DNA of 64,000 bases from Pseudomonas hormoni (GTDB taxonomy: Bacteria > Pseudomonadota > Gammaproteobacteria > Pseudomonadales > Pseudomonadaceae): assembly GCF_018502625.1 (NCBI RefSeq), contig NZ_CP075566.1, positions 3,644,001 to 3,708,000 of the forward strand, in the 5' to 3' direction. The notes under the pieces were generated by a model, which worked only from the letters and a program-made list of their open reading frames with translations, had not been told where the DNA came from and did not search any database. Shown here one piece after another: positions 14,141 through 55,862 of the stretch. Each line of letters begins with the position of its first letter. Positions within the stretch are counted from its first letter, which is position 1. The translations under genes were made by a program, and so were the position numbers.

Positions 14141-15769
14141 TCAAACCGGACTGTGTTTAGCCTTCAGATTCCGCGCATACCACGGCCGTTGCGGCACCTT
14201 GCGGAACAGATCCTCCAGCTTCTTCTCGTCTTCACCAAAGGTAATCCGCAACGCCAGCTTCATGGTTTCCGGGTCCATTTCCACCGACTTGCCCACCTGC
14301 AACCCCGGCGTGGCGTTGCAGCCATGGGTACTCGGGCCAAGCCACGGATCGTCGATCTCGACCCAGCGACCTGGCGCGAACCACGGCACGCCTTGGACCT
14401 CCAATCGACTCACTTCACCCGGATGAAAGCGCTCATGCGCGCGGAACCAGTCTTCGAGACGGTCGTCGATCCAGCCGTGAAAATGCCAGAACACCGGGTT
14501 CACATGGGAGGAAAACGGGTCGCCAAGGAAGTCGTTTTCCGCCGCGAACCATCGGGCGGAAAAGTCTGCGGTGTCCCGCGCGAACGGCACAGGCTGTCCA
14601 TTGGACGGGTCCCGGGGCACTGACGCCCAGCGCATGTGCAGCCAGTCATGCAGGCCCAGCTCGACCTCGGAACCGAACTGTCCCAGGGTCAGTTTCGACA
14701 AGTAACGCGGGTCACGGTAGCGCGATTCCCAGACCTGGAAATTGCTGTGGTAAGTCTCGGCGGTCTTGAGATCGGCGACCCACTGCGAATACTCGTCATC
14801 GTCATCGGCGCGCCAGGCTGGAGGCAGCGCGGTGCCGTCGTGGTTGTCGAAGTAACGGGCAAACCCTTGGCGATCACGCACCAGCTCTGGTTGCGGCAAT
14901 GGAAACTGCTGCCAGGACGGCAAATCCTGCAAGGAACGCGCGGTGCCGAGCATGTGGCGGTGCATGAAGAAAAAGTCGATGCCCGAGCCGTTGCGATCCT
15001 TGCGCGGCCCGCGAGCATCGCGCTCCTTGTCGCGAAGCCCCGGCTGCCAGCCGATCCCGCGCAAGGCGTTGCGCTTGTCCTCGGACAAGGTATGCCATTT
15101 GTCTCGAGAGGCGTGCCAGAGCTGATGGAACAAACGGTGCTCGGGCGAAATCAGCCACGCCAGCAACGCCGGGCCCAGGCCTGTGCGTTCACGCGCCTCG
15201 GGGAACACTTGCTTGACCGCGACGAAACGATTGTCCTGAGCGGTCAAGGCCAGCGGACGATCCAGACGCAGCACGCGCCCGCTCAAGGTGCCGCTGCCAG
15301 CATTGCCGAATACGGCCCAGACTTCGTCGAGTTTGAAGGTGAATTCGTAGTCCGGCGTCCCGGTCGGGGATCGGGTATCGATCAGGCGCCAGCTCAACTC
15401 GGTGGTGTTCGTGCCGGCCAGGTCGCCGAGGACGCGATAGCGCGGCGTCGGTTCGCCGCGCAGCGCATCAAAGGTATCGAGAAAGCCATTGAGCCCACGG
15501 CCCTTGTGACCGACGTCGAGCAACAGCTGCAACCCCTCGCGAGGCAAACCGTCGAGCCCGGCGTCACGGCCTTCGAAACGGATGTCCCAGACGCCCTGCA
15601 GCGTATTGGCCAGACGTTGTCCGGCCACATCCGCGACGTCGAATGACGCTTCACCGGGGGTAATCGTCGGGTCCGGTTTTGTCAGTTCGCGATGCCCGTA
15701 ATACGCCGCAGGCAGGGCAGCGCCAGTCAGTGCCAGACCCGCCAGGAACCATCGTCGAGAAATCGTCAT
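14141..15769 (-). CDS. pvdP: Periplasmic tyrosinase maturing ferribactin
   Basis: A 542-aa exported copper enzyme that oxidises the tyrosine of ferribactin to make the dihydropyoverdine chromophore. The N-terminus is a Tat signal (MTISRRWFLAGLALTGAALP). The N-terminal half is a beta-barrel-like region. The C-terminal tyrosinase half carries the histidine copper ligands (HRLFHQLWHASRDKWH, FFFMHRHMLGTARS, LHDWLHMRWASV, FSSHVNPVFWHFHGWID). ATG 15769 starts the Tat signal; the frame is open further upstream. Length is close to the P. aeruginosa protein. An exact PvdS box is at 15815-15838. It is transcribed divergently from pvdMNO. Confidence 0.94.
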   Translation of the reverse strand: MTISRRWFLAGLALTGAALPAAYYGHRELTKPDPTITPGEASFDVADVAGQRLANTLQGVWDIRFEGRDAGLDGLPREGLQLLLDVGHKGRGLNGFLDTFDALRGEPTPRYRVLGDLAGTNTTELSWRLIDTRSPTGTPDYEFTFKLDEVWAVFGNAGSGTLSGRVLRLDRPLALTAQDNRFVAVKQVFPEARERTGLGPALLAWLISPEHRLFHQLWHASRDKWHTLSEDKRNALRGIGWQPGLRDKERDARGPRKDRNGSGIDFFFMHRHMLGTARSLQDLPSWQQFPLPQPELVRDRQGFARYFDNHDGTALPPAWRADDDDEYSQWVADLKTAETYHSNFQVWESRYRDPRYLSKLTLGQFGSEVELGLHDWLHMRWASVPRDPSNGQPVPFARDTADFSARWFAAENDFLGDPFSSHVNPVFWHFHGWIDDRLEDWFRAHERFHPGEVSRLEVQGVPWFAPGRWVEIDDPWLGPSTHGCNATPGLQVGKSVEMDPETMKLALRITFGEDEKKLEDLFRKVPQRPWYARNLKAKHSPV

Positions 15770-15814
15770 TGCCCTACCTGTGTCAGCCATGGAGCAGGCT
15801 TTATCCAAGCTAGA

Positions 15815-17362: not shown

Positions 17363-17390
17363 TCGTCACTTTGCCAAGCGAACCGAATCC

Positions 17391-18671
17391 ATGACCAACC
17401 GTCGTACCTTCCTCAAACAGGCTGGCGTTATCGCGGCCGGCATCCCCCTGAGTTCCGCGGTCAACCTGCCGGCGCTGGCCGCCACGCCGGCGCCGCTGCC
17501 CAAAGACAAATGGGCGCAGTTTCGCCAGCTGTTCAATCAAGACCCCGATTACCTGCACTTCGCCAACTTTCTGGTGACCTCGCACCCAAGGCCCGTGCGC
17601 GAGGCCATCGAGATGCACCGCGCCAACCTCGACCGCAACCCGGGCCTGGCCATGGACTGGCATCGTGGCGAAACCGAACGCCGCGAAGAAGAAGTCCGCG
17701 TGTGGGCCGGCCGTTACCTGAAAGCCAAACCCTCGCAGATCGCCCTCACCGGCAGCACCACCGAAGGCCTGGCAATGATTTACGCCGGCATTCATGTGCG
17801 TCCGGATCAGGAAATCCTCACCAGCGAACATGAGCACTACGCCGCCAACAGCGTGTTTGAATTCCGCACGCAAAAGGACGGCACCCAGGTTCGCAAAATC
17901 AAATTGTTCGAAGACCCGTACAAGGTTTCGACCGATGAAATACTGGCGTCGATTGCCCGCAACATTCGCCCCGAGACCCGCGTGCTCGGCATGACCTGGG
18001 TGCACTCCGGCAGCGGTGTGAAATTGCCGATCGGCGAGATCGGCAAACTGGTCGCCGAGAAAAACCGCGACCGTGAGGAAAACAATCGCATCCTTTATGT
18101 AGTCGATGGCGTCCACGGCTTCGGCGTGGAAAACCTCGATTTCCCGGACATGCATTGCGACTACTTCATCGCCGGCACCCACAAATGGATGTTCGGCCCA
18201 CGGGGCACCGGGATCATCTGCGCGCGCTCCGACGAGATGAAAGACATCACGCCGACCATTCCGACGTTCTCTGAAGCGACCACGTTTTCGACCGTGATGA
18301 CCTACGGCGGCTACCACTCGTTTGAACACCGCTGGGCGCTGACCGAAGCGTTCAAATTGCATCTTGATCTGGGCAAGGCCGAGGTTCAGGCGCGCATTCA
18401 CGAGATCAACAGCTACCTGAAAAAACGCTTGCAGGAGCATCCGTCGGTGGAGCTCGTCACGCCGTTGTCGCCCGAGTATTCCGCCGGCTTCACCTTCTTC
18501 CGCATCAAGAACCGGGACTGCGAGGAAGTCGCCAATTTCCTGATGGACCAGCGTGTGGTCTGCGATGCCGTCGACCGCGATGTCGGCCCGATCATTCGTC
18601 TGTCCCCGGGCCTGCTCAACACCGAGGCGCACATCGACCGCGTCATGACGCTGTTGGCCAGCAAGCTCTGA
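17391..18671 (+). CDS. pvdN: Periplasmic PLP-dependent enzyme modifying the chromophore side chain
   Basis: A 426-aa class-V aminotransferase-fold protein. The N-terminus is a Tat signal (MTNRRTFLKQAGVIAAGIPL), which fits a cofactor-loaded protein exported folded. The PLP lysine is in FIAGTHKWMFGPRGTG, with the cofactor Asp/His pair in VVDGVHGFGVENL. PvdN converts the glutamic acid side chain at the chromophore to the succinamide form. The frame is open into pvdM; ATG 17391 begins the Tat signal and lies 28 bp after the pvdM stop. Confidence 0.94.
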   Translation: MTNRRTFLKQAGVIAAGIPLSSAVNLPALAATPAPLPKDKWAQFRQLFNQDPDYLHFANFLVTSHPRPVREAIEMHRANLDRNPGLAMDWHRGETERREEEVRVWAGRYLKAKPSQIALTGSTTEGLAMIYAGIHVRPDQEILTSEHEHYAANSVFEFRTQKDGTQVRKIKLFEDPYKVSTDEILASIARNIRPETRVLGMTWVHSGSGVKLPIGEIGKLVAEKNRDREENNRILYVVDGVHGFGVENLDFPDMHCDYFIAGTHKWMFGPRGTGIICARSDEMKDITPTIPTFSEATTFSTVMTYGGYHSFEHRWALTEAFKLHLDLGKAEVQARIHEINSYLKKRLQEHPSVELVTPLSPEYSAGFTFFRIKNRDCEEVANFLMDQRVVCDAVDRDVGPIIRLSPGLLNTEAHIDRVMTLLASKL

Positions 18672-18700
18672 CACACCGATTCCCTTTAGCGAGAATGCTC

Positions 18701-19723
18701 ATGAAAAACCTCCTGCACCGATTCATTGCTGCTCAGTCCTGGGCATTGCTGAACCAGTGGCGAGGGAGCTTGCTCCCGCTGGGCCGCGCAGCAGACCCTG
18801 TTCTTCAGGCGAAGAGCGGGGGTCGCTTCGCGCCCCAACGGGAGCGAGCTCCCTCGCCACAGGTTTATGTTTACGCAGTATTGGCACTGCTGGCGTTGTT
18901 GCCCGTCGCCGCCCAGGCCTCCACCGCGCCGCTGCCGGGCAAGGTGTTCAAGGATTGCCGCAACTGCCCGGAAATGGTGGTGCTGCCTGCCGGCACCTTC
19001 ACCATGGGCACACCGGAAGGTGAAGTCGGTCGCGAGCCCGATGAAGGCCCGATGCACGAAGTGACGTTCGCCAAGCCATTCGCCATGAGCCGTTACCAGA
19101 TCACCGCCGGTGAATGGGACCAATACCTGAAGGAAACCGGGATCACCATTCCCGACGGCGACACCCGCCCCGGTCGCGAATGCATCAACAGCAAGCCACG
19201 TTATCCACAGGGCCCGCGTCAGCCGGCGGTGTGCATGAACTTTGCCGAGGTCAGCGCGTATGTCGCGTGGCTGTCCATCAAGACCGGCCAGCACTACCAC
19301 ATCGTCAGCGAGGCCCAACGCGAATACGCCGCCCGTGCCGGTTCAACGGGGCCGTTCCCGTTCCCGTTCGATGAAGGCACCGAGTACAGCATCGCCACCC
19401 ATGCCAATACTTACGGGCCAACCGACGGCTACAGCTACACCTCCCCGGTCGGCAGCTTCCCAGCCAACGCCTTCGGCATGTACGACATGCACGGCAACGT
19501 CTACGAGTGGATCGCCGACTGCGAACACACCGATTACGTGGGCGCCCCTACCGATGGCAGCGCCTGGGTCGAACCCAACTGCGAAGCCCTGCAGATTCGC
19601 GGTAACGACTGGGGGGAAGCGCCGGTGTTCTCGCGTTCCGGCAACCGCAACAACATCTACCCGCAAACCCGTGGCGACTGGATCGGTTTCCGTGTGGTGC
19701 GCGATCTGCCGTCCAAAGGCTGA
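18701..19723 (+). CDS. pvdO: FGE-like chromophore maturation protein with REP-derived N-terminal insert
   Basis: The body (from about residue 75) is a formylglycine-generating-enzyme (SUMF1) fold: EMVVLPAGTFTMGTPEGE, GEWDQYLKETG, YGPTDGYSYTSPVGSFPANA, FGMYDMHGNVYEWIADC, then a C-terminal IGFRVVRDL. PvdO completes oxidation of dihydropyoverdine to pyoverdine in the periplasm. The N-terminus is odd. MKNLLHRFIAAQSWALLNQ is followed by about 35 residues encoded by a REP pair (18757-18862), and only then comes a hydrophobic signal-like stretch (YAVLALLALLPVAAQAS). No ATG or GTG in frame lies between the REP and that stretch, so translation must cross the REP or start at a TTG. ATG 18701 has GAG seven bases upstream; ATG 18695 is the alternative. 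Confidence 0.88.
   Translation: MKNLLHRFIAAQSWALLNQWRGSLLPLGRAADPVLQAKSGGRFAPQRERAPSPQVYVYAVLALLALLPVAAQASTAPLPGKVFKDCRNCPEMVVLPAGTFTMGTPEGEVGREPDEGPMHEVTFAKPFAMSRYQITAGEWDQYLKETGITIPDGDTRPGRECINSKPRYPQGPRQPAVCMNFAEVSAYVAWLSIKTGQHYHIVSEAQREYAARAGSTGPFPFPFDEGTEYSIATHANTYGPTDGYSYTSPVGSFPANAFGMYDMHGNVYEWIADCEHTDYVGAPTDGSAWVEPNCEALQIRGNDWGEAPVFSRSGNRNNIYPQTRGDWIGFRVVRDLPSKG
18757..18862. repeat. REP pair inside the pvdO coding sequence
   Basis: The GTGGCGAGGGAGCTTGCTCC motif and its inverted partner lie in the reading frame of pvdO without a stop codon. They encode WRGSLLPLGRAADPV...RERAPSPQ, the same peptide pattern that translated REP copies show at other loci in this window. Confidence 0.9.
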
Positions 19724-19784: not shown

Positions 19785-19824
19785 TCTACTGGGTATGCCT
19801 CACGACCCAAGGGACCGTCCTCAA

Positions 19825-29592: not shown

Positions 29593-41387
<11,795 letters not shown>

Positions 41388-41391
<4 letters not shown>

Positions 41392-44300
41392 CGCGTGTGT
41401 TCCTCATCCACTTCGTCGAACAACGCTTCCAGCGCGTCTACATCGTTTTCTTTGTGTTCACTCTGCTGACGGAACTGCTCGATTTCCGCCGCCAGGCGCT
41501 CCAGCGTGTCGCCTTCGAAGAACAGCTTCAGCGGGATCGCCAGGTTCAGTTCTTCCTGAATCCGCGCGCGAATCCGCGTCGCCAGCAGCGAGTGGCCGCC
41601 CAGCTCGAAGAAACTGTCGTGCACGCCGACACGTTCCACGTGCAGCGCTTCGGCCCAGATCGCCGCCAGGACTTTTTCCAGGTCGGTGCGCGGGGCGACG
41701 AAGGCACTGCGGCGTACGTCGAGGTCGAGCAAGGCCTGGCGATTGAGTTTGCCGTTGGGCATCAGCGGGAAGCGTTCCAGCACTTGCAAGCGAGCCGGCT
41801 GCATGTGCTCGGGCAGCGCTTCGCCGAGGTGACTGCGCAATTCGTTGAGGCGGATGTCGGCGGTGTCGGCCGGGGAAATCACGAAGCCCAGCAGTTGCGG
41901 GCCGGTCGGCGTTTCGCGAGCAATGACGGCGGCGTCTTCGATGCCAGGTGCGCTGAGCATGGCGGATTCGATCTCGCCCAGTTCAATGCGGAAACCGCGG
42001 ATTTTCACTTGATGATCGACCCGGCCCAGGTACTCCAGCACGCCATCGGCGCGGTAGCGTGCGAGGTCGCCGGTGCGGTACAGGCGCTGACCGGCCTGCT
42101 TCGCAAACTGGTCGGGAACAAAACGTTCGGCAGTCAGCGTGGCGCGCTTGAGATAGCCGCGAGCGATGCCGGCGCCGCCGACATACAGCTCACCTTCGAC
42201 GCCCACGGCCACCGGCATCAAGTCCGGGCCGAGCACGTGGATGCGCATCCCCGGAATCGGCTGGCCAATCGGGATGGTGTCGTCATCCTGACCCAGCGGC
42301 AGTTCCCACGCCGAACACCAGACCGTGCCTTCAGTCGGGCCGTATTCGTTGACCAGCGCCAACTGCGGCAAGGCCTCGCGATGTCGTGCGACCAACGCGT
42401 TGCTGCACGCTTCGCCGGCGACGATCACGCAGGCCAGGGCATGGTCGCCGAGGTGTTCGAGAATCTGCGCGTGGTAGGACGGCAAGGTCAGGTAGTGGGA
42501 AACCTCTTCACGCTGGATCAACGCTGCCAGCAGCGCCGGGTCCTTGTAGCTGTCTTCGTCCGGCAGGCACAGGGTCGCGCCCTGCCCCAACGCCCAGAAA
42601 ACCCCGGCCACCGAACTGTCGAACGAGAACGACGAGAGCATCAGGAACGCGCGCAACGGCTGACGATAGAACGCGCTGCGCGCCAGGGTCGAGGCCACCG
42701 CGTTGGCGTGACTGATCATCACGCCCTTCGGTTTGCCGGTGGAGCCGGAGGTGTAAATGACGTAGGCCAGATTGGCGCTGTCGCCCAGCGGCATTGGTTG
42801 CTCTTGTGAAGCGGACCAGACCTCGGCATCGGCCATCAGCGAAATCACTCGCTCACTGTGCAACGCTTCCGGCAGCGGCTGGCAAGCCAGGACCTGACAC
42901 GCTGCGGCGTCCTGCAACATGAACGTCAGACGATCGATCGGGTAGTTGGGATCGAGCGGCAAGTACGCGGCGCCGGCCTTGAGTGTACCGAGCAGTGCGA
43001 TAACGATTTCCAGCGAACGCTGACCGTAAACCGCAACGATTTCGTCCGGCGCCACACCTTGGGCGCGCAAGGTGTTGGCCACTTGGTTGGAGCGTGCATC
43101 CAGCTCGGCATAACTCAGGCGCTGGCCATTGACGCTCACGGCGATGCGTTGCGGATGCAGGCGTGCATGTTCGGTGAACAGGTCTTGCAGGTAGCGGCAC
43201 GGCAATGCCTGCTCGGCGGCCAGCGGGTTGAAGTCCTCGATCAAACGGGTCAGTTGCACCGCGTTGACCTGAGTGGCCTGGCCCAAGGTCAGCTCGGGCG
43301 AGGTCAGCAACTGACGGCTGAATTCGACAAACTGTTCCAGCCAGGCCGCCAGCATCGACTCGGGCACCGCGCCGGCCAGGCACGACAGCTGCAAGTGTTC
43401 ACCCTGAACCCGCAGACGCAGGACTTCCGGGTTGGCGTCGCCCACTTCTATGTTCGCCTCGGCGTCGGCTTGAAACACCAGGCCATAACGCAGCGGCGTC
43501 GCGACTTCGGCGCTCAGTTCGAATTCGTTGAGGCAGTCGAGCCAGGACAGCGATTGCTCGACGCTGGCAGCAAACGATGCCAGCGCTTGCGCCAGGGTCT
43601 CGTTACTGCGGTTGTCGAAGGCCACTGGCAAACGACGGGCGAAACGCCCCAGGGTCGCTTCGGTCTGCTCGTTGCGCCCCGCCACTTCCCAGCCCATCAG
43701 CAACTTTTCCTGATTGCCGATGCGCGCCACGAACGCACTCCACAACAACAGCGCCACACGCTGCGCCTCGACACCCTGATCGTCGGCCACCCGTTGCACA
43801 TCGGCCAGCCATGCCGCGTCGTCGAGCGTGGCCTGATGGCGAACCAAAGTCAGGTCAACGGCTTTTTCGAAGGGCAAATGATGCGCCAGCGCGAACTGCT
43901 GTAGCAGGTTGCGCCAGAACGCCGCGCCTTGATGGCCGATGTCTTCTTCGCGCAGTTCTTCCTGCCACGCGGTGTAATCCAGGTACTGCAAATCTTCCCG
44001 ATTGTCGGCCAGTGTTTCGCCGCGCAACAGGCTCGCCAGCTCCGCCGACAGCACCTGCAGCGACACTTCATCGAGGCTGCTGGCCGGCGCCAGCAACGTG
44101 ACGAAATGCTGACCTCCTGCGGTTTGCACGGGCGTCACCACCAATACTCGAGCCGGATCGGCAGACAGGGTTTCACGGCTACGGCTCAGGGCTTCGGCCA
44201 CCGAAGACACGTTATCCAGCAGCGTCACCGGCAGCTCTTCGCACAGACTTTGCACAGGCCACTTCATGCCCGGCAAACGGCGATAGACCGTGCGCAGGGT

Positions 44301-44486
44301 TTCATGGCGCTGGCCCAACTCATCCAGTGCCGCGCGCAATGCCCGCGCCTCTACAGCCTGGGCGACCGGCACGGTCAGGGCGGCGAACAAGGCCTGTCCG
44401 CCCAGCTCCTGAGCGCGCAAATAAAAGGCTTGCTGGGCCGAAGTCTGAAAAACGTCTACCGAAGGTTCGAGGGCGGTGGTGTTCAT
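41388..44486 (-). CDS. Pyoverdine NRPS with degenerate C-like interface domain, A and T
   Basis: A 1032-aa protein. Residues 15-430 resemble a condensation domain, but the HHxxxDG motif is absent (TLLAPASSLDEVSLQ stands in its place), so it should not form peptide bonds. This is the pattern of interface domains that dock beta-hydroxylases. The A domain has YTSGSTGKPKG near 577, and the T domain has ELGGHSLLATR near 962. Pocket residues read by eye are DSALIAEVW. They share seven of ten positions with the histidine code DSELTAEVC (counting the shared Lys) and differ from the usual Asp code (DLTK...). Substrate His, to be beta-hydroxylated, is thus likelier than Asp. The amide-forming C domain is at the end of the 3083-aa NRPS. 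AAGGA lies eight bases before the ATG. Confidence 0.88.
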
Positions 44487-44497
44487 GTCGAGGGTCC

Positions 44498-45556
44498 TTA
44501 TTCCTGATCCAGGTCGGCGCTTTTCTGCGCGATGGCCATGGCCGTGAGGATTTTTCTGTAGCCAGTGAATTCGTTGCGCGCATGCACGCTGAGGATGTTG
44601 TCCAGCAGGACCACGTCGCCCTTCTCCCAGGCGAACTCGACCATCACGTCGCGATAGATGCCTTGCAGGTGGCGGATGACGTCGTCGGGAATGGCCGTGC
44701 CGTCACCGAAGAAGGTGTTCTGCGGCAGGTCCAGCGGGCCGAATTCACCCAGCAGGTTGTCGCGGATGCTGTCCGGCAGGGTCAGCGCGTTGAAGAAGGT
44801 GCCGTGGTTGAACCAGATGCGCTCGCCGGTCAGCGGATGGCGCACGATCGCCGGGCCGTTTTGCCGGGTGCGCAGGCGATTGCCCGACTTCCACTCGGCC
44901 TGAATACCGATCTTGGCGCAGTAGGCTTCGACTTCCGCGCGGTCCTCGCTCTGGAACACGGTCTGCCACGGCAGCCCCATGCCGTCGCCGTAGTTGCGCA
45001 CGTACATGATGCGTTTACGCTGAAACTCCTCGCGCACGGCCGGGTCGATTCGCGCGAGGATTTCGCGGGTGTCGCCAAACGGGGTTTCGCCGCCGGTGGT
45101 CGAGGGCGTGTCGCAGTAGAAGTACAGGTGACGCGGGAACACCGGCGAGTAGGAATGCTCGTTGTGCGGGAAGATTTTCTCCGCCGCCGGGTAGTCGGTG
45201 GAGCTGTAGATCTTGAACTGGCCGGTGATCTGGGTCCGTGGCGAGGCGCGGAACAGGTACTCCAGGGCACCGTCGGAAATCGCCGCCACGCAGCGGTTGA
45301 ACTCGGCGATGTCAGCCACCTGGAAGCCACGGAACAGAATCACTGCGTGCTCAAGCAGCTTGCTTTCGATCAGTGCGCGATTCTCCGTCGCCCACTCCAC
45401 CAGGCTCACGCCGGGCACCGCCGGGCGGCACACCAGGGGCATGCTGATGCCGTCGAACATCGGCGCAAAACTCACCAGCCGGGTCGGGTCGGTGGACAGG
45501 CTCTTGCGCGCACCGCGGCCGATTTTGGGAATGGACTTGGTGGTTGAAACAGTCAT
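44498..45556 (-). CDS. SyrP/TauD-like Fe(II)/2-oxoglutarate amino-acid beta-hydroxylase
   Basis: A 352-aa TauD-family dioxygenase of the SyrP type. The iron ligands are visible as H131-x-E133 (FPHNEHSYSP) and H325 (LLDNILSVHARNEF). Such enzymes hydroxylate the beta-carbon of an amino acid bound to an NRPS carrier domain. In siderophore pathways they give beta-OH-Asp or beta-OH-His, which bind iron. The gene lies between the NRPS that ends in an orphan C domain and the NRPS with the interface-A-T unit. The gaps are short (54 and 11 bp), and AGGGG precedes the ATG. His or Asp specificity cannot be read from this protein alone; the His-like A-domain pocket next door favours His. Confidence 0.9.
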   Translation of the reverse strand: MTVSTTKSIPKIGRGARKSLSTDPTRLVSFAPMFDGISMPLVCRPAVPGVSLVEWATENRALIESKLLEHAVILFRGFQVADIAEFNRCVAAISDGALEYLFRASPRTQITGQFKIYSSTDYPAAEKIFPHNEHSYSPVFPRHLYFYCDTPSTTGGETPFGDTREILARIDPAVREEFQRKRIMYVRNYGDGMGLPWQTVFQSEDRAEVEAYCAKIGIQAEWKSGNRLRTRQNGPAIVRHPLTGERIWFNHGTFFNALTLPDSIRDNLLGEFGPLDLPQNTFFGDGTAIPDDVIRHLQGIYRDVMVEFAWEKGDVVLLDNILSVHARNEFTGYRKILTAMAIAQKSADLDQE

Positions 45557-45610: not shown

Positions 45611-48600
45611 TCAGTCCGCCGCGGTTTGCGCTGCCGGCGTGCCACGAATCGCCGAGCGGCGCTTGATCGCCATGCGCCCGCCGAACAACGCCTTGCGTTG
45701 TTCGTTCAGGCGCGCATCGGCGCGGCGTTGCACATCCGTGGCCAGGTCCAGCAATTCGCTGACCGTCAGCTCGTCGGCGCGCAACAACGCTTGCAGCACC
45801 GCCTCGATTTGTTCGAACAGGCTTTCCAGCGTGCTCGGCAGGTACTGCCCGGCGGGTGTTTCGAAACTCAGGTGAATGTGTTCAGCCTCGTTGTAGAACG
45901 CAGCGACCATGCCGATCTCGGCGGCTTGCCGGCCCGACGGGAAGTCCTCGACCAGCAGGCCGTCCATGGACGGCAAACGACCGACGCCTTCCTGGTAGAT
46001 CAACTTGATGTCGAACAACGGCGAACGCCCGGCCCGGCGCGGCAGACGCAACGCTTCCACCAGTCGCTCGAACGGCAGGTCCTGATGGTCCGAAGCCTCC
46101 AGAACTGCGCGGCGACAGGCTTGCAACAGTTGCCCGGCAGCCTGGTCCGCATCGACCTCCACTTGCAGCACTAATTGGTTAACGAAGAAGCCGACCATTT
46201 GTTCAAGCTCAACTTGATTTCGGTTGGCGATATCGGTGCCGATGCGTACGCGACTGACCTCGGTGCGCTGACGCAATACCAGGGTAAAGCCGGCCAATAG
46301 CACCATGAACAGCGACAATCCACGCTGTTGGGCGAAGTCGCGCAACTGCTGACTCAAGGTCGCATTCAAGGTGAAATGTTGGCTGGCGCCTTCCTGCGCC
46401 TGACGCTGATCGCCGTCGCTCGGCAGCTCCAGGACCGTTTGCGGTTGGCCAAGGCGCGTGACCCAGTAATCGAGCTGACGTTGCAGCTCACCACCTTGCT
46501 CCAGCCACTGGCGCTGCCATTTGGCGAAGTCGGCGTATTGCACGACCTGTTCCGGCAACGATGCGACGCCACCCTGGTTGAGGGTCGGATACAAGGTCAC
46601 GAACTCATTGATCAGAATACGGAATGACCAGTCATCCGCAGCGATGTGGTGCACTGTCAGCAGCAACACATGCTCCTGATCCGCGACCTGCAACACCCGC
46701 ACCCGCAGCAACGGCCCATTGCGTAAATCGAATGGTCGGGCAACTTCCTCACGGGCCAGTTGCGCGGCTTCGACGTCCGGCGCCGGCAAATGCCGCAGGT
46801 CGCTAGCGGCGAAGTTCAACGGCAGTTCGGCGTGTACTCGCTGCCAGGCGAGGCCGTCTTGCTCATAGAACGTGGTGCGCAACACGGCGTGGCGTTGTAC
46901 CAACGTTTCAAAGGTTTTCTGCAACGCCGACAGGTTCAGCTCACCGCGCAAACGCAAGGCGCCCGGCATGTTGTACATCGAGCTGTCGGGTTCCAGATTC
47001 CACAGGAACCACAACCGTTGCTGGGCAAAGGACAACGGCTGGCGTTCGCCGGAAAGGTCCGCCACCAGCGCCGGGCGTTCGCAGACATTGGCGTCGTGCC
47101 GTAGGCCTTGCACCTGAGCGGCGAAATCCTGCAGGCGCGGGTGTTCGAACAGGCTGCGCAAACTCACCGACAAGCCCAGGCGCTGGCGAATCTGCGAGAC
47201 GATCTGCGTGGCCAGCAACGAATGCCCGCCCAGCTCGAAGAAGCTGTTTTCGCGATCGACACGGGCAACCTGCAACACCTGCTGCCAGATCTGCGCCAGC
47301 TCGATTTCCAGCTCGCCTTGCGGCGCGGTGCCGGCCACGGCTTCCCAGACCTCTGGCGCCGGCAGCGCGGCGCGGTCGAGTTTGCCGTTGCGGTTGAGTG
47401 GCAACGCACTCATCACCACCAGTTGCGCCGGCAGCATGTAGTCCGGCAGCCGCTCGCCCAAAGCCTGGCGCACGGTTTCGGTGAGTTGACGCGAATCAGC
47501 ATTCGGCAACACCGGCACGACATAGCCGATCAGTTGCTTGCCACCGACGCCTTCGTGCACCAGCACCGCGGCTTCGCTGATCATCGGCAAGCCTTGCAGG
47601 TGCGCTTCCAGCTCACCCAGCTCGACGCGGAAACCGCGAATTTTCACCTGGTGGTCGATGCGCCCCAGGTATTCCAGCGCGCCGTCCTCGCGATACCGCG
47701 CCAGGTCGCCGCTGCGGTACAAGCGTGCGCCCGGCGTGGTGGAAAACGGATCGGCAATGAAACGCTCGGCGCTCAGCCCCGGACGCTGGTGATAGTGCTG
47801 GGCAATGCCGGCGTCACCGCCGATGCACAACTCGCCCACGCAACCGGTTGGCAGCAGATGGCCCTCGGTGTCCAGCACGTACAGCGCCCGGCCCGACAAC
47901 GCGCGGCCAATCGGCACGCCGAGCAGATTTTGCGTGTCGGCCAAGGTGCACAGGTGAGTGCTGGAGACCACGGTGGCCTCGGTCGGCCCATAGGTGTTGA
48001 GCAAGCGTACGTCGCCGAGACCGGCGGCATGCCAGAGCTTCAGGCCTTCCAGCGACATGGCTTCGCCACCGACGTGGACCTGACGCAACCGGCCTTTGTC
48101 ACGCTGAGGCTGCGCGGCCCACTCCTGAGCCAGCAAATACCAATAGGCCGCCGGCAAGTCCGCCAACGTCACGCCCTGTTTGATGATCTGCCGGTACAAG
48201 GTGTCGGTGTCCCACAGTTCATCACCGCGCAACACCAGCGCCGCGCCCACGCACAGCGGCGGATAGCACTGCTCGACAAAGCCGTCGAAGCTGAACGTGG
48301 CGAATTGCAGGACACGGTCGTCGGCACTGAGCTGCGAATAGTCCGCCGCAATCACGCAAAACTCGCGCAGCGCGGCGTGGGCCAGGCACACACCTTTCGG
48401 CCGGCCGGTGGAGCCGGAGGTGTAAATCAGGTACGCGAGGTCTTCGGCACAGGCGAAGTTGACCGGGTTGGCCGTGGAATAGCCGGCCAGCGACGCCGCC
48501 GTCAGCGCCAGACGCGGCAAGCCTTCGGGCAACGCGACATCGGTCAGCAGCTCCGGTTGCGCCAGCAGCAGATCCACCCCGCTGTCTTCGATCATGTAGG

Positions 48601-51600
48601 CCAGACGTTCGGCCGGGTAGTCCGGGTCCAGCGGCACATAACCGGCGCCGGACTTGAGGATGGCCATGAGGCTGACGATCATCTGCGCGTTGCGCCGCAC
48701 CGACAGGCCGACCCGTTGGCCCGGCGCCACACCGTGCTCGCGCAGGCGATGGGCGAGCTGGTTGGCCTGGGCGTTGAGCTGTGCATAAGTCAGTCGCTCG
48801 TCACCGAGGATTACGGCCCATGCATCGGGCGTGCGTGCCGCTTGCTGCTCGAAGCGTTGATGCGCCAGCAATGGACTGTCCAGCAGCGGCGCGGCGGGAC
48901 GCGAGCCCAGCAACACCTGAGTTTTTTGCTTGGCATCCAAGAGGCTGACGGCCCCCAGAACCTGTTGCGGCTGCGCGACGAATTGCTCCAGCACATGCAG
49001 CAGGTTCGCGCCCAGTCGCTCGATCTGCGCGGCGCTGAACAAAGCCTGATCGAAACTGAATTCCAGACGCAGGCTGGCGCCGACTTCGATGCCGAGGGTC
49101 AGCGGGTAGCTGGTGATTTCGTGATTGCGCAGTGCGCCGAAGGTCAGTCCCGCCGGAGCGCCTTGCTTCAGTGCTTCGGCCACCGGGAAGTTTTCAAACA
49201 CCAGCAAACTGTCGAACAGCGCGTTGCCCTGCTGCCCCGCCCAGCCCTGGATGTCGTAAAGCGGCACATGTTCGAACTCGCGCAGGCTCAGGTTCAGGGC
49301 TTGCAGTTCGTTGAGCCATTGGCTGACCGGCTGACCGGAGTGTGGCCTGGCGATGATCGGCAAGGTGTTGATGAACAGACCCAACTGTTGCTCGATGCCC
49401 GGCAACGGCGCGGATCGTCCCGCAATCGTTGCGCCGAACGCCACGCACGATTGGCCGGTGTAGCGCTGCAACAGCAGACCCCACGCGCCCTGCAACAAGG
49501 TGTTGAGGGTGATTTTCTGCTGCCGGGCGAACTCCGCCAGGCGCTGCATCGCGGCGCTTTCCAGCGTCAGGTGATGCTCGCCCATGCCACGCCCCTCGAC
49601 CGGCGTCGGCAAGGCTTGCGCCAGCAGCGTCGGCGTTTCGAGGGCGGCCAGCGCCTGTTTCCAGAACTGCTCGCCCGCCGCCAGTGGCTGCTGCTGAATC
49701 CAGCCCAGGTAGTCGCGGTATTGCCCCAGGGGTTTGGCCAGTGTTTGCCCGGCGTAATGCTGAATCACTTCGCCGAGCAACTGCGCGTTGCTCCAGCCGT
49801 CCATGAGGATGTGATGACTGGTGTAGATCAGGTGCCAGGCGTCGCTGCTTTGGCGCACCAGCATCAGGCGGAACAGCGGCGCGGCGCTGAGTTCGAAACC
49901 ACGGCTGCGCTCTTCGGCGGCCAGCGCATCGAGGTCGATATCGGCGGCCTCGATCACCTGCAATTGCAGGTCGATCTGGCGATGAATTACCTGATGAGCA
50001 GATTCCAGACCCAACCAATGGAAGCTGCTGCGCAGAATGTCGTGACGGTTGATCGCCGCTTGCCACGCCCGACCGAAGGCCGCCAGTTCCAGCCCCTGAA
50101 TGTCCAGGCGCAGTTGGTTGATGTAGGCCTCGGCCTGCGGCTCATACAAGGTGTGGAACAGCATGCCCTGCTGCATCGGCGTCAGCGGATAAATGTCCTC
50201 GATAGCCGGTGCCGCGACAGGCAACGCGTCCAGCTGCGCCTGGTTGATCCTGGCCAGCGGGAAGTCCGACGGCGTGACCTGACCCGCCGGCGTGGCGCAG
50301 CAATGTTCGATCAGCGCGGTGAGTTCTTCGCTGTAGGCATCAGCCAGTTGCTGGACGGTGCTGTCGGCGAACATTTCGCGGCTGAAGCCCCATTGCAGCG
50401 AGAGTTGACCGCCATAGACCTGACTCTCCAGGGTCAGCCAGTTGGCCAGCGGCGCATCGTCACCCTGGGCCTGACCGCCACTTTCCAGCGACGGTACAAA
50501 CAGCGCATCGTCATCGAACTGGCGGTCGAACTGGCCGAGGTAGTTGAAGGTAATCCGTGGCGCCGACAACCCTTGCAAGGACTCACGCTGGGCCGGCTCG
50601 CCGAGGTAGCGCAGCAAGCCATGACCCAGCCCTTTGTCGGGGATGGCGCGCAGTTGTTCCTTGATCGCCTTGATCGCATTCGCCGTGTCGGCTTGAGGTC
50701 GCAGGCGCACCGGGAACAGGCTGGTGAACCAGCCTACGGTGCGCGTCAGGTCGAGGTCGTCGAACAGGTCTTCACGGCCATGGCCTTCAAGCTGGATCAG
50801 CGTCGAGTGATGCCCGGTCCAGCGGCAGATCACCCGCGCCAGCGCCGTCAGCAGCAAGTCATTGACCTGGGTGCGATACGCCGCCGGGGCCGTTTGCAGC
50901 AGCTGCCGCGTCAACCCGGCGTCGAGCTTCGATTCGATCTTGTGGCCGTGGCGATGCTGCAGGCTGCCCAGCGGGTTTTCACACGGCAGGTCGCGGGCAT
51001 CGGCGTGTTGCGCCTGCCAGTACGGCAGTTGCTGATCCAGCGTGCGGGCATGCGCTTGCAGGTGTTTGGCCCAGTGTTGATAGGCGCTGGTTTTGTCCGG
51101 CAATGTCGCAACGCTGCCAGCGGCCAATTGGGCGTAGGCCTGCTGGAGGTCTTCGAGCAGCACCCGCCACGACACGCCGTCCACCGCCAAATGGTGGATC
51201 GCCAGCAACAGGCGTTGTGTGCCATCGTCGAGGCTGACCAGCAACGCGCGCAGCAACGGCCCATCGGCCAGGTCGAGACTGCGTTGCGCTTCGTCGCACA
51301 GGGCCGTCAAAGCCTCGGTCGACGCCGCCTGCCGCTGCCACAGCCCCGCTGTTTCGACCGGCGATCCGTGGCGCTGCTGCCAGCCATCGACACTCGCGGT
51401 AAAACGCAGGCGCAAGGCATCGTGATGGTTGATCACCGCGACCAGCGCGGCTTCAAGAGCTTCAGGGTTCAGCGCCTCGCGTGGCGTCAACAACAAGGAC
51501 TGGTTCCAGTGCTGCGGCTGCGCGATGGCCTGCTCAAAAAAGTAAAGTTGCGCCGGGGTTAGCACCACCTCGCCGCTGACCGGCTCTTGGTCGATGGAAC

Positions 51601-54600
51601 TGCGGTTATCGAACGCCGCCACCAGCGCGAGGCTGCGCACGGTCTGGCACTGAAACAAGTCACGCGGACTGAGACGGATGCCGGCCTGACGGGCGCGGCT
51701 GACCACTTGAATGGAGATGATCGAGTCACCGCCCAGCTCGAAGAAGTTGTCTTCGAGGCCCACGCGCTCCAGCCCCAACACGTCCTGCCAGATCTGCGCC
51801 AGCGCCGTTTGCATGGCGTCTTGCGGCGCGACGAACGCTTGTTGCGGCGCCGCATCCGGTTGCGGCAGGACCTTGCGGTCCAGCTTGCCGTTGGCGGTCA
51901 CCGGCAGGGCATCCAGTGGCATCAGGTAGGTCGGCACCATGTATTCCGGCAGGCTATTGAGCAGCCAGGCTTTGAGGGTTTCCGGCCACTGCGCCTCGGC
52001 GTTTTCCAGCACCAGGTACGCCACCAGATGCTTGCCGCCCTGCACCAGGACCACGGCTTCGCGCACCAGCGGATGCTGCATCAGGCGGGTTTCGATTTCC
52101 CCCAGCTCGATACGCAGGCCGCGCAGTTTTACTTGATGGTCGAGACGGCCGAGGTATTCGATCACCCCGTCGGCACGCTGGCGCACCCGGTCGCCGGTGC
52201 GGTACAGGCGCGCGCCGTCATGGAACGGGCACGGCACAAACCGCTCGGCCGTCAGCCCCGGACGGCGGTGATAACTGCGCGCCAGACCGGCGCCGCCCAG
52301 GTACAACTCCCCCGCCACGCCCGCCGGCACCGGCAGCAATTGCGCGTCCAGCACATGGGTACGCAAGTTGGCAATCGGCCGGCCGATCGGCACGCTGTCG
52401 GCGCCTTCGTCAACGCAGGTCCAATGGGTCACGTCGATGGCCGCTTCGGTCGGCCCGTACAAGTTGTACAACCCGGCGCCCGGCAGCTTGGCGAACACTT
52501 GAAGCTGGGCGTCCAGCGGCAGGGCTTCACCGCTGCACGCGATGCGTTTGAGGCTGGTGCAGGCTTCAACGCCCGGCTCGTGGATAAACGCCTGAAGCAT
52601 CGATGGCACAAAGTGCAAGGTGCTGATGCCGAACTCGCCGATGAGGCGGATCAACCGCGCCGGTTCGCGATGCGCACCCGGCGGCGCCACCACCAGACGG
52701 GCGCCGGTCATCAGCGGCCAGAAGAATTCCCAGACCGACACATCGAAACTGAACGGGGTTTTCTGCAACACCGAGTCACTACCATCCAGCCCATACGCCT
52801 GTTGCATCCAGCACAAACGGTTGACCAGCGCCGCATGACTATTGCCAGCGCCCTTGGGCTTGCCGGTGGAACCGGAGGTGTAAATCACGTAGGCCAGGTT
52901 CAGCGGATTCACCGAATCCTGCGGGCAGGTTTCGCTGTAACCGTCCAGCCAATCCTCGTCCTGATCCAGTGCGATGACCTTGATGCCCTCGGTCGGCAGC
53001 GCGCCAGCCAGGGCGCTTTGAGTCAGCAACACACCAACCGCACTGTCTTCAATCATGTAGGCCAGGCGTTCCGCCGGATATTCCGGATCGAGCGGCACAT
53101 AAGCGCCGCCAGCCTTGAGAATCGCCAACAGGCCGATGACCATTTCCAGCGAACGCTCGACGGCGATCCCCACCAGCACATCGGGGCCGACACCCTGCTC
53201 GCGCAGGTAATGAGCCAATTGATTGGTGCGCGCATCGAGCTGTGCATAAGTCAGCTGCCGGTCGCCAAACACCAGCGCGGACGCTTCGGGTGTGCGCAAG
53301 GCCTGGGCGTGGATCAGTTGATGAACGCATTGCTCGACGGGATAAGTTTCGGCGGTGCGGTTCCAGTCGTGCACCAGCACCTGCTGCTCATCCGCCGCCA
53401 GCATCGGCAGCTCGCCGACCCGCTGATTCGAATCGACCACCATCGCCTGCAACAGGCGCGTCCAGTGTTGCGCCATGCGCGCAATGGTCGGCGCGTCGAA
53501 CAGGTCGCTGGCGTAGGTCAGTGCGGCGTGCAGCTTGCCGCCCTTTTCGTAGGTGTCGAGGGTCAGGTCGAACTGCGTGGTGCGCCCTTCCCACTCGATC
53601 GCGCCCAGCACCAGGCCGGAAGCGGTGCTGATGCTGGACATGTCCGCGACCTGCGGCTGGTGGTTGTACATCACCTGGAACAGCGGCGTGTGGCTGAGGC
53701 TGCGTTCCAGTTTCAGCGCTTCGACCAAGCGCTCGAACGGCAGGTCCTGATGGGCCTGGGCGCCGAGGGCGGTTTCCTTGATGGCGCGCAGCAAATCCTC
53801 GACGCGGGTGTGGCCATCGAGCCTGGTGCGCAGCACCTGGGTGTTGACGAAGAAGCCGATCAGGCCTTCGATTTCCGCACGGTTGCGGTTGGCAATCGGC
53901 ACACCGACACGGATGTCGGTTTGCCCGGTGTAGCGATGCAGCAGTGCGTTGAACGCACCGAGCAACAGCATGAACAGGGTGATGTTGTGTTTCTGCGCGG
54001 TGGCACGCAGTTGCTCGGCCAGTTGCGGGTCGACGGCAAATTCGTAGCGGGTGCCGCGATAGCTCGGCATCGCCGGGCGCGAGTGGTCTGTGGGCAGCTC
54101 CAGCACCGGGTGTTCATCGCCGAGTTGCGCTTGCCAGTAATCCAGTTGACGCGCCTGTTCACCCGCCTCCAGCCAGCGGCGCTGCCACAACGCGTAGTCG
54201 CTGTACTGGATCGGCAACGGCGCGAGTTGCGGTTGTGCACCGGCCTCGAAGGCGTCGTAACAGCGAATGAATTCGTCGATCAGCACGTTCATCGACCAAC
54301 CATCGGAAACGATGTGGTGCAGGGTCAGCAGCAGGACGTGTTCCTGTTCGGCAAGCTTGAGCAGCGTCACGCGCAGCAACGGGCCGACCGAGAGATCGAA
54401 GGGCAACACTGATTGCTGCTCCGCCGCTTGGGCGACGGCGCGTTCGCGATCAGTGGGCGGCAATGCGCTGAAATCCACATGATCGATCACCAGCGGTGCG
54501 CTGGCCGGCACTTGCCGCAGGTTGCCGTCGGCCTGGCGCTGGAACACCGTGCGCAGGGTTTCGTGACGCTCCACGAGGCTGGCAAAGGCCTGCTCCAGCG

Positions 54601-54862
54601 CAGGCAGGTTCAACTGCCCGGTCAGACGCACCGCACCAGGCAGGTTGTAGGCGCCACTTTGCGCATCCAGTTGCCAGAGAAACCACATGCGTTGCTGGGC
54701 GTAAGACAACGCCTGACGATCCTCGGCCTCGACGCCCGCAGGAATCGGGAACCGGGCGAAATCAATGCCTTCCTTTTGCAAGGCCGCAAGGAACATCTGG
54801 CGCTTTTCCAGGGGCAACCCGATAAACCGGCGAGCAAGTTTCAAGGAGTCTTCAGCATTCAT
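45611..54862 (-). CDS. pvdI: Pyoverdine NRPS, two modules plus terminal orphan C domain (C-A-T-E, C-A-T, C)
   Basis: A 3083-aa protein. Landmarks are: C1 HHIVSDGWS near 182, A1 YTSGSTGKPKG near 664, T1 LGGDSI near 1044, E HHLAVDGVS near 1230, C2 HHILMDGWS near 1685, A2 YTSGSTGRPKG near 2149, T2 LGGHSLL near 2544, C3 HHIAADDWS near 2737, then about 300 further residues without A or T. Pocket codes are A1 DVWHASLID (Ser, D-configured by the E domain) and A2 DGEDHGTVV (Lys). C3 has HHxxxDD instead of HHxxxDG and must use the carrier of the 1032-aa NRPS as acceptor. The protein begins with a C domain, so it extends a precursor from PvdL, which is not in this window. It is the first gene of the NRPS operon. 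Symbol by position only. Confidence 0.92.
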   Translation of the reverse strand: MNAEDSLKLARRFIGLPLEKRQMFLAALQKEGIDFARFPIPAGVEAEDRQALSYAQQRMWFLWQLDAQSGAYNLPGAVRLTGQLNLPALEQAFASLVERHETLRTVFQRQADGNLRQVPASAPLVIDHVDFSALPPTDRERAVAQAAEQQSVLPFDLSVGPLLRVTLLKLAEQEHVLLLTLHHIVSDGWSMNVLIDEFIRCYDAFEAGAQPQLAPLPIQYSDYALWQRRWLEAGEQARQLDYWQAQLGDEHPVLELPTDHSRPAMPSYRGTRYEFAVDPQLAEQLRATAQKHNITLFMLLLGAFNALLHRYTGQTDIRVGVPIANRNRAEIEGLIGFFVNTQVLRTRLDGHTRVEDLLRAIKETALGAQAHQDLPFERLVEALKLERSLSHTPLFQVMYNHQPQVADMSSISTASGLVLGAIEWEGRTTQFDLTLDTYEKGGKLHAALTYASDLFDAPTIARMAQHWTRLLQAMVVDSNQRVGELPMLAADEQQVLVHDWNRTAETYPVEQCVHQLIHAQALRTPEASALVFGDRQLTYAQLDARTNQLAHYLREQGVGPDVLVGIAVERSLEMVIGLLAILKAGGAYVPLDPEYPAERLAYMIEDSAVGVLLTQSALAGALPTEGIKVIALDQDEDWLDGYSETCPQDSVNPLNLAYVIYTSGSTGKPKGAGNSHAALVNRLCWMQQAYGLDGSDSVLQKTPFSFDVSVWEFFWPLMTGARLVVAPPGAHREPARLIRLIGEFGISTLHFVPSMLQAFIHEPGVEACTSLKRIACSGEALPLDAQLQVFAKLPGAGLYNLYGPTEAAIDVTHWTCVDEGADSVPIGRPIANLRTHVLDAQLLPVPAGVAGELYLGGAGLARSYHRRPGLTAERFVPCPFHDGARLYRTGDRVRQRADGVIEYLGRLDHQVKLRGLRIELGEIETRLMQHPLVREAVVLVQGGKHLVAYLVLENAEAQWPETLKAWLLNSLPEYMVPTYLMPLDALPVTANGKLDRKVLPQPDAAPQQAFVAPQDAMQTALAQIWQDVLGLERVGLEDNFFELGGDSIISIQVVSRARQAGIRLSPRDLFQCQTVRSLALVAAFDNRSSIDQEPVSGEVVLTPAQLYFFEQAIAQPQHWNQSLLLTPREALNPEALEAALVAVINHHDALRLRFTASVDGWQQRHGSPVETAGLWQRQAASTEALTALCDEAQRSLDLADGPLLRALLVSLDDGTQRLLLAIHHLAVDGVSWRVLLEDLQQAYAQLAAGSVATLPDKTSAYQHWAKHLQAHARTLDQQLPYWQAQHADARDLPCENPLGSLQHRHGHKIESKLDAGLTRQLLQTAPAAYRTQVNDLLLTALARVICRWTGHHSTLIQLEGHGREDLFDDLDLTRTVGWFTSLFPVRLRPQADTANAIKAIKEQLRAIPDKGLGHGLLRYLGEPAQRESLQGLSAPRITFNYLGQFDRQFDDDALFVPSLESGGQAQGDDAPLANWLTLESQVYGGQLSLQWGFSREMFADSTVQQLADAYSEELTALIEHCCATPAGQVTPSDFPLARINQAQLDALPVAAPAIEDIYPLTPMQQGMLFHTLYEPQAEAYINQLRLDIQGLELAAFGRAWQAAINRHDILRSSFHWLGLESAHQVIHRQIDLQLQVIEAADIDLDALAAEERSRGFELSAAPLFRLMLVRQSSDAWHLIYTSHHILMDGWSNAQLLGEVIQHYAGQTLAKPLGQYRDYLGWIQQQPLAAGEQFWKQALAALETPTLLAQALPTPVEGRGMGEHHLTLESAAMQRLAEFARQQKITLNTLLQGAWGLLLQRYTGQSCVAFGATIAGRSAPLPGIEQQLGLFINTLPIIARPHSGQPVSQWLNELQALNLSLREFEHVPLYDIQGWAGQQGNALFDSLLVFENFPVAEALKQGAPAGLTFGALRNHEITSYPLTLGIEVGASLRLEFSFDQALFSAAQIERLGANLLHVLEQFVAQPQQVLGAVSLLDAKQKTQVLLGSRPAAPLLDSPLLAHQRFEQQAARTPDAWAVILGDERLTYAQLNAQANQLAHRLREHGVAPGQRVGLSVRRNAQMIVSLMAILKSGAGYVPLDPDYPAERLAYMIEDSGVDLLLAQPELLTDVALPEGLPRLALTAASLAGYSTANPVNFACAEDLAYLIYTSGSTGRPKGVCLAHAALREFCVIAADYSQLSADDRVLQFATFSFDGFVEQCYPPLCVGAALVLRGDELWDTDTLYRQIIKQGVTLADLPAAYWYLLAQEWAAQPQRDKGRLRQVHVGGEAMSLEGLKLWHAAGLGDVRLLNTYGPTEATVVSSTHLCTLADTQNLLGVPIGRALSGRALYVLDTEGHLLPTGCVGELCIGGDAGIAQHYHQRPGLSAERFIADPFSTTPGARLYRSGDLARYREDGALEYLGRIDHQVKIRGFRVELGELEAHLQGLPMISEAAVLVHEGVGGKQLIGYVVPVLPNADSRQLTETVRQALGERLPDYMLPAQLVVMSALPLNRNGKLDRAALPAPEVWEAVAGTAPQGELEIELAQIWQQVLQVARVDRENSFFELGGHSLLATQIVSQIRQRLGLSVSLRSLFEHPRLQDFAAQVQGLRHDANVCERPALVADLSGERQPLSFAQQRLWFLWNLEPDSSMYNMPGALRLRGELNLSALQKTFETLVQRHAVLRTTFYEQDGLAWQRVHAELPLNFAASDLRHLPAPDVEAAQLAREEVARPFDLRNGPLLRVRVLQVADQEHVLLLTVHHIAADDWSFRILINEFVTLYPTLNQGGVASLPEQVVQYADFAKWQRQWLEQGGELQRQLDYWVTRLGQPQTVLELPSDGDQRQAQEGASQHFTLNATLSQQLRDFAQQRGLSLFMVLLAGFTLVLRQRTEVSRVRIGTDIANRNQVELEQMVGFFVNQLVLQVEVDADQAAGQLLQACRRAVLEASDHQDLPFERLVEALRLPRRAGRSPLFDIKLIYQEGVGRLPSMDGLLVEDFPSGRQAAEIGMVAAFYNEAEHIHLSFETPAGQYLPSTLESLFEQIEAVLQALLRADELTVSELLDLATDVQRRADARLNEQRKALFGGRMAIKRRSAIRGTPAAQTAAD

Positions 54863-55094: not shown

Positions 55095-55829
55095 TCAGGC
55101 AGTGGCGGCCATGGCGTGCCGGCGATGGTGAACATCGAGCTGGTCCTTGATCACCCGCAACACCTTGGCTTCGTGCTCATGGATGAAGAAGTGACCGCCG
55201 GCCAGCATGTCCACGGAGAAGCTGCCGTGGGTTTCCTTGCTCCAGCCGATCAGCTGTTCGGTGGTCGCGCGATCAGCCTTGCCGCCGAGCACGTGCACCG
55301 GGCATTTCAGCCGCGGGCGCTGGATCGGCGTGAAACGGCCGCACAGCAGGAAGTCAGCGCGCAGGATCGGCAGCGTCAGGCTCATCAGCTCTTCATTGGC
55401 CAGCACTTCTTCGCTGGTGCCATTGAGGGTGCGCAGTTGCTCGATCAGCTCGGCATCGGTTTTCGGATCGGCAAAACCCTGATCGTAATCAGCCCGCATC
55501 GTCGGCGCGGCGGTGCCTGAAGCGAACAGCGCCACCGGCTCCGGGCAACCCAGCGAGCGAAAGGCATGGGCCATTTCGCAGGCCAGCAAAGCGCCGAGAC
55601 TGTGGCCGAACAGCGCGTACGGTGCCTTGAGCGTGGCTTTCTGTTCCTGCGCGAGTTGCAGCGCCAGGCGCCGCATGTCGGTGTGCAATGGCTCGCCGAA
55701 CCGCGCGCCGCGCCCCGGCAGTTCCACCGGCTGCAGCTTGAGCCACTCCGGCAGTTTGCGCCGCCAGCGGCTGTAGACCATGGCGCTCGCGCCTGAATAG
55801 GGCAGGCACAGCAATGTCAGCTGGGTCAC
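55095..55829 (-). CDS. pvdG: Type II thioesterase of pyoverdine synthesis
   Basis: A 244-aa alpha/beta hydrolase of the GrsT/type II thioesterase family: LCLPYSGASAMVY, the nucleophile motif ALFGHSLGALLACEMA, the catalytic Asp in VHVLGGKADRATT and His in LAGGHFFIHE. It frees NRPS carrier domains from wrong or stalled acyl groups. GTG 55829 was chosen because GAGG lies eight bases upstream; GTG 55838 is possible but overlaps that site. A PvdS-box variant (TAATT-N16-CGT) lies upstream. In PAO1 pvdG is next to pvdL; here pvdL is not in view. Confidence 0.9.
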   Translation of the reverse strand: MTQLTLLCLPYSGASAMVYSRWRRKLPEWLKLQPVELPGRGARFGEPLHTDMRRLALQLAQEQKATLKAPYALFGHSLGALLACEMAHAFRSLGCPEPVALFASGTAAPTMRADYDQGFADPKTDAELIEQLRTLNGTSEEVLANEELMSLTLPILRADFLLCGRFTPIQRPRLKCPVHVLGGKADRATTEQLIGWSKETHGSFSVDMLAGGHFFIHEHEAKVLRVIKDQLDVHHRRHAMAATA

Positions 55830-55862
55830 CGGGCTCACCTCGAAAAGTTGTCTGTAAAGAGA

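Follow-up and report, generated by a model that had tools for sequence, protein, structure and literature searches.

Predicted formation of beta-hydroxyhistidine by a stand-alone hydroxylase and an interface domain in a pyoverdine locus of Pseudomonas hormoni

Beta-hydroxyhistidine (OHHis) of siderophores made by nonribosomal peptide synthetases (NRPSs) is reportedly the product of IbetaH-His hydroxylases, which Reitz et al. (PNAS, 2019) are said to have described as working with an interface domain and as hydroxylating His in the L-threo sense. The residue occurs in ornicorrugatin and histicorrugatin, and Budzikiewicz is said to have reported in 1997 a pyoverdine, 9AW/9BW, with the chain Ser-Lys-OHHis-aThr-Ser-cOHOrn (aThr, allo-threonine; cOHOrn, cyclic hydroxyornithine). 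PMC12971057 ascribes the definition of these enzymes, there called IBH_His, to Reitz et al. 2019 and puts beta-OHHis pathways at <2% of the detected regions; antiSMASH 8, according to PMC12230676, includes profiles for siderophore beta-hydroxylases and interface domains. Two other papers give the pyoverdine of Pseudomonas entomophila L48 as Ala-xxx-OHHis-Asp-Gly-... (PMC4219678) and list corrugatin with OH-Asp and OH-His (PMC10628113). Here we analyse a stretch of 64,000 nucleotides, hereafter the window, of Pseudomonas hormoni (assembly GCF_018502625.1, contig NZ_CP075566.1, positions 3,644,001 to 3,708,000; the genome is 6.48 Mb in one contig), in which an NRPS of 1032 residues that begins with a condensation-like domain lies next to a stand-alone oxygenase of 352 residues. 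The locus shares with IbetaH-His systems a TauD-type Fe(II)/2-oxoglutarate enzyme, an interface domain, an adenylation domain read as His and a siderophore NRPS. We hold with high confidence, from sequence comparison, that the two genes provide the third-residue module of a pyoverdine line, in which an interface-recruited hydroxylase would make OHHis on the carrier. The unit belongs to the known interface/IbetaH-His kind, its arrangement is common within that kind, and the machinery has already been described.

Transcription on the minus strand runs through a 3083-residue NRPS, the oxygenase, the 1032-residue NRPS and a 3932-residue NRPS (Table 1). Judged by open reading frame (ORF) coordinates, 54 bases separate the upstream NRPS from the hydroxylase and 11 bases the hydroxylase from the 1032-residue protein, which in turn overlaps the downstream NRPS by 4 bases. 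Pfam recognises in the 1032-residue protein a Condensation match at residues 15-311 only (E 3.5e-25), followed by AMP-binding and PP-binding; with its interface (I), adenylation (A) and carrier (T) domains we refer to it as I-A-T. The ORFs agree with the initial annotation, H131, E133 and H325 of the dioxygenase are intact where it placed them, and motif-anchored reading returns the same pocket, DSALIAEVW. Its further statement that the first domain had lost HHxxxDG holds for the histidine pair but not for the aspartate: a search of the 1032-residue protein for the motif found none, and in the active-site columns both His are replaced while the Asp (D139) is retained. All eight condensation (C) and epimerisation (E) domains of the two neighbouring NRPSs carry HHxxxD.

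A scan of a genome collection gave 105 relatives, 80 of which were retained as loci; in the window's own genus 57 of 398 genomes match at E <= 1e-90. The typical locus has an NRPS ending in C, then the hydroxylase, then a protein made of a C-like domain, A and T. The A domain that comes after the hydroxylase was found in 79 of the 80 loci, L040 being cut, and its code is DSALIAEVW in 72, DSALVAEVW in five and unreadable in two; counted among the 72 is L080, with a hydroxylase fused to a C domain and its A domain at a greater distance. The initial annotation had considered a unit on its own protein to be a rare form, a view at odds with the 78 downstream ORFs that were read: 49 are short I-A-T proteins (<=1200 residues), 37 of these from Pseudomonadales, 11 are cyanobacterial with about 400 extra residues, and 18 are longer, broken or cut; this tally also takes in two ORFs whose A match is split. 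In P. protegens 14B2 (L023) frames are broken in the A domain of the I-A-T protein and in the next NRPS, by assembly error or decay.

Kinship of the C-like domain was assessed in a tree of 72 rows, comprising the window's domain, 38 of the 79 locus domains hand-picked for spread, five presumed Asp-type domains and 28 C/E controls chosen by the HHxxxD motif, whose motif score thus holds by construction; interface domains were recognised by their place beside hydroxylases. The 39 His-type and five presumed Asp-type interface domains form one clade (Shimodaira-Hasegawa-like approximate likelihood ratio test, SH-aLRT, 99) with active C and E domains outside it, so that the window's domain, a member of the condensation superfamily lacking the catalytic His pair, groups with interface domains and apart from active C, as the initial annotation had anticipated. 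Loss of both catalytic His with retention of the Asp is common to all 44. All 44 also have W249; for W315 the counts are 37 of 39 in the His type and 0 of 5 in the Asp type. The string LPGMxxP, considered as a further interface signature, was dropped, being kept in just 14 of 39 His-type domains. A search of the PDB with the interface domain retrieved mostly condensation-domain proteins, together with a weak similarity (E 3.6e-7) to entries 4tx2/4tx3, which we take to be the X domain of glycopeptide NRPSs. The X domain is alike in combining a condensation-type fold with no condensation role and with oxygenase recruitment, and differs in that the recruited enzymes are cytochrome P450s.

The 352-residue protein is of the TauD family and has the HxE...H iron site of IbetaH-His beta-hydroxylases; H131, E133 and H325 are kept in 103 of 103 aligned hydroxylase sequences. 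Its closest named relatives are from P. fluorescens PS858 (99%) and P. migulae NBRC 103157 (97%). In an IQ-TREE phylogeny of the 103 rows it belongs to a clade of 61 rows (99/99) that includes the enzymes of P. entomophila COR5, P. thivervalensis DSM 13194 and P. brassicacearum CCUG 51508, and the 20 main enzymes of cyanobacteria lie outside this clade, beside it. Five of six fused hydroxylases and 14 of 15 low-scoring second hydroxylases come together elsewhere (19 rows, 100/94), where the classes 'second hydroxylases' and 'Asp-type' are presumed by place, their codes being unread. Of the two exceptions, the fused enzyme of L080 is cyanobacterial and placed close to the His type, and the second enzyme of L039 forms a very long branch. 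The window's hydroxylase is set apart from the fused, presumably Asp-type Pseudomonas enzymes and clusters with enzymes of OHHis siderophores (that of P. entomophila L48 and the ornicorrugatin type). It adjoins an interface domain and an A domain for which His is read from the products of relatives. The idea that an interface domain with a stand-alone hydroxylase leads to beta-hydroxyhistidine in a pyoverdine is well supported by phylogeny, by the near-invariant pairing with one code and by relatives' products.

Pairwise distances, compared across 34 of 35 chosen loci, connect the three parts further. Correlations are 0.83 between hydroxylase and I, 0.83 between hydroxylase and A and 0.81 between I and A, as against 0.52-0.55 with the upstream C domain; partial correlations of the hydroxylase are 0.46 with I, 0.47 with A and 0.10 with C. 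Adjacency alone is insufficient to explain this because the upstream C domain is equally near. The result suggests that hydroxylase, I and A are inherited as one cassette with its boundary at C, the alternative for that boundary being that C domains follow the upstream residue. Mean distances are 1.99 for the interface domain, 1.24 for C, 0.79 for A and 0.59 for the hydroxylase. The interface domain is under purifying selection: its ratio of nonsynonymous to synonymous substitution rates (dN/dS) against six relatives is 0.14-0.36, above that of the hydroxylase, A and upstream C in six of six comparisons and well below 1.

It might be argued that the C-like domain is simply a condensation domain in decay that no longer has a function, and that the hydroxylase finds the T domain unaided. 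The dN/dS of the domain, which in the six comparisons exceeds that of the adjacent C domain by a factor of 1.4 to 2, and a Pfam match covering just part of it point in this direction. We nevertheless consider decay very unlikely: the ratio stays well below 1, the domain shares a clade with interface domains that follow fused hydroxylases, the tryptophans W249 and W315 are conserved as given above, and loci from several phyla have a C-like stretch ahead of A (in L023 the break in frame comes only afterwards, in A). Another possibility concerns the target, since an enzyme that stands alone might in principle work on some other residue, such as Lys or Thr, or on free His before loading. The code DSAL[IV]AEVW in 77 of 79 adjoining A domains (the other two being unreadable), hydroxylase distances that track the adjoining A and I domains, and the OHHis that PMC4219678 places in a relative's pyoverdine, that of P. 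entomophila L48, make this very improbable.

Some observations weigh against the reading of the unit as an interface-recruited histidine hydroxylase module. The bootstrap of the hydroxylase tree had not settled, the C/I tree was built by a quick method without bootstrap on the 38 hand-picked domains, several long-branch rows occur in both, and His-type and Asp-type interface domains are unseparated in the latter. The interface domain is the fastest-changing part in comparison with its neighbours, and a partly dispensable domain would behave likewise. Finally, the OHHis module of this strain is a prediction from its genes, and DSALIAEVW is read as His by analogy with relatives' products.

The window carries a pyoverdine locus, with PvdP and PvdO scoring above curated cut-offs (Table 1). 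Pocket codes, read via motif anchors, are in order DVWHASLID, DGEDHGTVV, DSALIAEVW, DFWNVGMVH, DVWHMSLID and DGECCGGVT, which by the usual code tables would stand for Ser, Lys, His, Thr, Ser and OHOrn. After the first and fourth modules come C-like domains clustering with E, and a thioesterase (TE) domain terminates the line; the chain predicted from this is D-Ser-Lys-OHHis-D-(a)Thr-Ser-cOHOrn. L-His would be loaded by the A domain of the 1032-residue protein onto that protein's own T domain, and the interface domain, in physical contact with the stand-alone Fe(II)/2-oxoglutarate hydroxylase, would hold it against His-S-T for hydroxylation of the beta carbon. The terminal C domain of the upstream NRPS would then couple the ...Ser-Lys chain to OHHis, hydroxylation on the carrier thereby preceding condensation, and the downstream NRPS would extend the product with Thr, Ser and cyclic OHOrn. 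As a separate observation, the last C domain of the 3932-residue NRPS (residues 2621-3040) clusters with post-E C domains (DCL-like) and follows a module without E.

Residue order and number in the structure reported for pyoverdine 9AW are identical to those of the predicted chain. For the Type I pyoverdine of the P. fluorescens complex, residue 3 is given as Xxx in PMC11366639, and four of the eight producers named there (NBRC 103157, DSM 17150, GM48 and GM74) correspond to our loci L003, L006, L017 and L050, whose first four codes are as in the window save one variable position. The difference from that description is that residue 3, Xxx there, is here OHHis by prediction; the whole word His is absent from the main text of PMC11366639, and a search of the accessible literature on OHHis in pyoverdines found no paper giving this chain with OHHis. 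The published Xxx is most likely beta-hydroxyhistidine, as is reported for pyoverdine 9AW.

Among described producers, P. entomophila is similar in that OHHis is third in the L48 chain and in that the COR5 hydroxylase is 73% identical and encoded in the order C, hydroxylase, I-A-T; the L48 pyoverdine differs in its other residues and in having a chain of ten, against six in the window. In COR5 the unit comes after an NRPS of two modules, the first with an Ala-like code; the region read starts with that NRPS. P. brassicacearum CCUG 51508 is, we assume, the same strain as DSM 13227. Mass spectrometry showed that the latter makes ornicorrugatin, matching its histicorrugatin-like cluster (PMC12971057). 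Loci of this histicorrugatin/ornicorrugatin type (P. thivervalensis L049, P. brassicacearum L052) have the same hydroxylase clade, A code and gene order as the window, and differ in identity (57%), in belonging to lipopeptide siderophores and in holding a second, distinct hydroxylase.

Where the upstream NRPS terminates in a C domain ahead of the hydroxylase, it extends a median of 48 residues past that domain, with a basic motif near the end. The basic trio occurs in 69 of 77 such tails (the window and 76 loci), compared with a mean of 14.3 and a maximum of 24 on shuffling, although shuffles ignore relatedness. Among the remaining NRPS tails of these loci it was found in 14 of 130, with 0 of 11 among other C-ending ORFs (some of them fragments) and 13 of 91 among other T-ending ORFs. 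By order, the counts are 43/43 in Pseudomonadales, 16/16 in Nostocales, 2/2 in Nitrospirales and 4/7 in Burkholderiales. Hydroxylase N-termini show a looser motif (consensus PSLGAARRKAVS); taken from the first Met, 43 of 79 contain the strict trio versus one of 15 second stand-alone enzymes, and the window's own N-terminus (GARKSLS) fails the strict pattern. Scored with the hydroxylase motif, the tails have a median of 8.2 versus -3.9 for other NRPS tails; 23 of 77 versus four of 130 exceed the 95th percentile of shuffled tails, 12 of 77 exceed the 99th, and the window's tail, at 9.3, is under its 95th percentile of 10.4. These low pass counts and the window's score weigh against a likeness between tail and hydroxylase. 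Each tail was also compared with its own and with others' hydroxylases, and no preference for its own was seen (mean rank 0.53), which speaks against species-specific docking. The tail is possibly a docking peptide, with or without a counterpart on the hydroxylase, or possibly a linker relic of a fused C-hydroxylase. We regard as unlikely a fuller scheme in which the split between C and the interface protein is held by the basic docking peptide, with a looser copy on the hydroxylase N-terminus, and the two take turns at a common site on I-A-T so that hydroxylation precedes condensation. Among the features described here, only the basic tail may be new.

The same unit was seen in other phyla. 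Twenty cyanobacterial loci (Nostoc, Fischerella, Scytonema and others; L047, L058, L060-L061, L063-L065, L067-L068, L070-L077 and L079-L081) have a relative of the hydroxylase with a C-like domain and an A domain of the same His code, which is legible in 19 of the 20, and beta-hydroxyhistidine metallophores may be made by these cyanobacteria. Two metagenome-derived Nitrospirales genomes (L042, L046) contain the same hydroxylase/interface/His unit.

Other genes of the window are listed in Table 1. Its dipeptidase and class-V aminotransferase fit PvdM and PvdN. Upstream of pvdP, at 9488-14036, lie a MacA/MacB-like exporter and an outer-membrane channel, which fit the PvdRT-OpmQ pump.

Table 1. 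Features of the analysed stretch, with positions counted from its first letter
Feature	Position	Strand	Basis
Upstream NRPS, 3083 aa, C-A(Ser)-T-E-C-A(Lys)-T-C	45611..54862	-	Pfam, motifs, pocket codes
C domain at C-terminal end of the 3083-aa NRPS, HHIAADD, likely C of the His module	45761..47056	-	motif, domain clustering
Tail behind terminal C of upstream NRPS, basic motif AIKRRS, residues 3035-3083	45614..45760	-	tail comparison
Stand-alone Fe(II)/2-oxoglutarate histidine beta-hydroxylase (IbetaH-His type, predicted), 352 aa	44498..45556	-	TauD PF02668 E 6.3e-42; H131/E133/H325; tree
Basic N-terminal stretch PKIGRGARKSLS of hydroxylase	45494..45529	-	sequence, motif comparison
I-A-T NRPS, 1032 aa	41388..44486	-	ORF, Pfam
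Interface (I) domain, first 430 residues of the 1032-aa NRPS, without the catalytic HH but with Asp139	43197..44486	-	tree, active-site columns
Adenylation domain, about residues 437-913, code DSALIAEVW, read as His	41748..43178	-	Pfam, pocket code
Carrier (T) domain, predicted histidine carrier, about residues 939-1001	41484..41672	-	PP-binding match
Downstream NRPS, 3932 aa, C-A(Thr)-T-E-C-A(Ser)-T-C-A(OHOrn)-T-TE	29593..41391	-	Pfam, motifs, pocket codes
PvdP, pyoverdine maturation tyrosinase	14141..15808	-	NCBIfam NF051454, 1071.7 bits, cut-off 625
Dipeptidase	16007-17362		
Class-V aminotransferase	17283-18671		
PvdO, dihydropyoverdine dehydrogenase	18695..19723	+	NCBIfam NF051459, 548.4 bits, cut-off 500
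Cyclic-peptide ABC exporter	19795-21486		
TonB-dependent siderophore receptor	21609-24023		
Thioesterase	55095-55838		

Assignment of OHHis would fill in the missing residue 3 for the pyoverdine type of the P. jessenii and P. mandelii groups and gives a mass to look for; the residue should serve as an iron ligand. The calculated [M+H]+ of Suc-chromophore-Ser-Lys-OHHis-Thr-Ser-cOHOrn is 1044.438, as against 1028.443 for the form lacking the hydroxyl. The co-change of hydroxylase, interface domain and His A domain, set against a looser C domain, suggests a natural cassette boundary for NRPS engineering. A docking role for the basic tail, if real, would explain how a split module coheres with an extra oxygenase.

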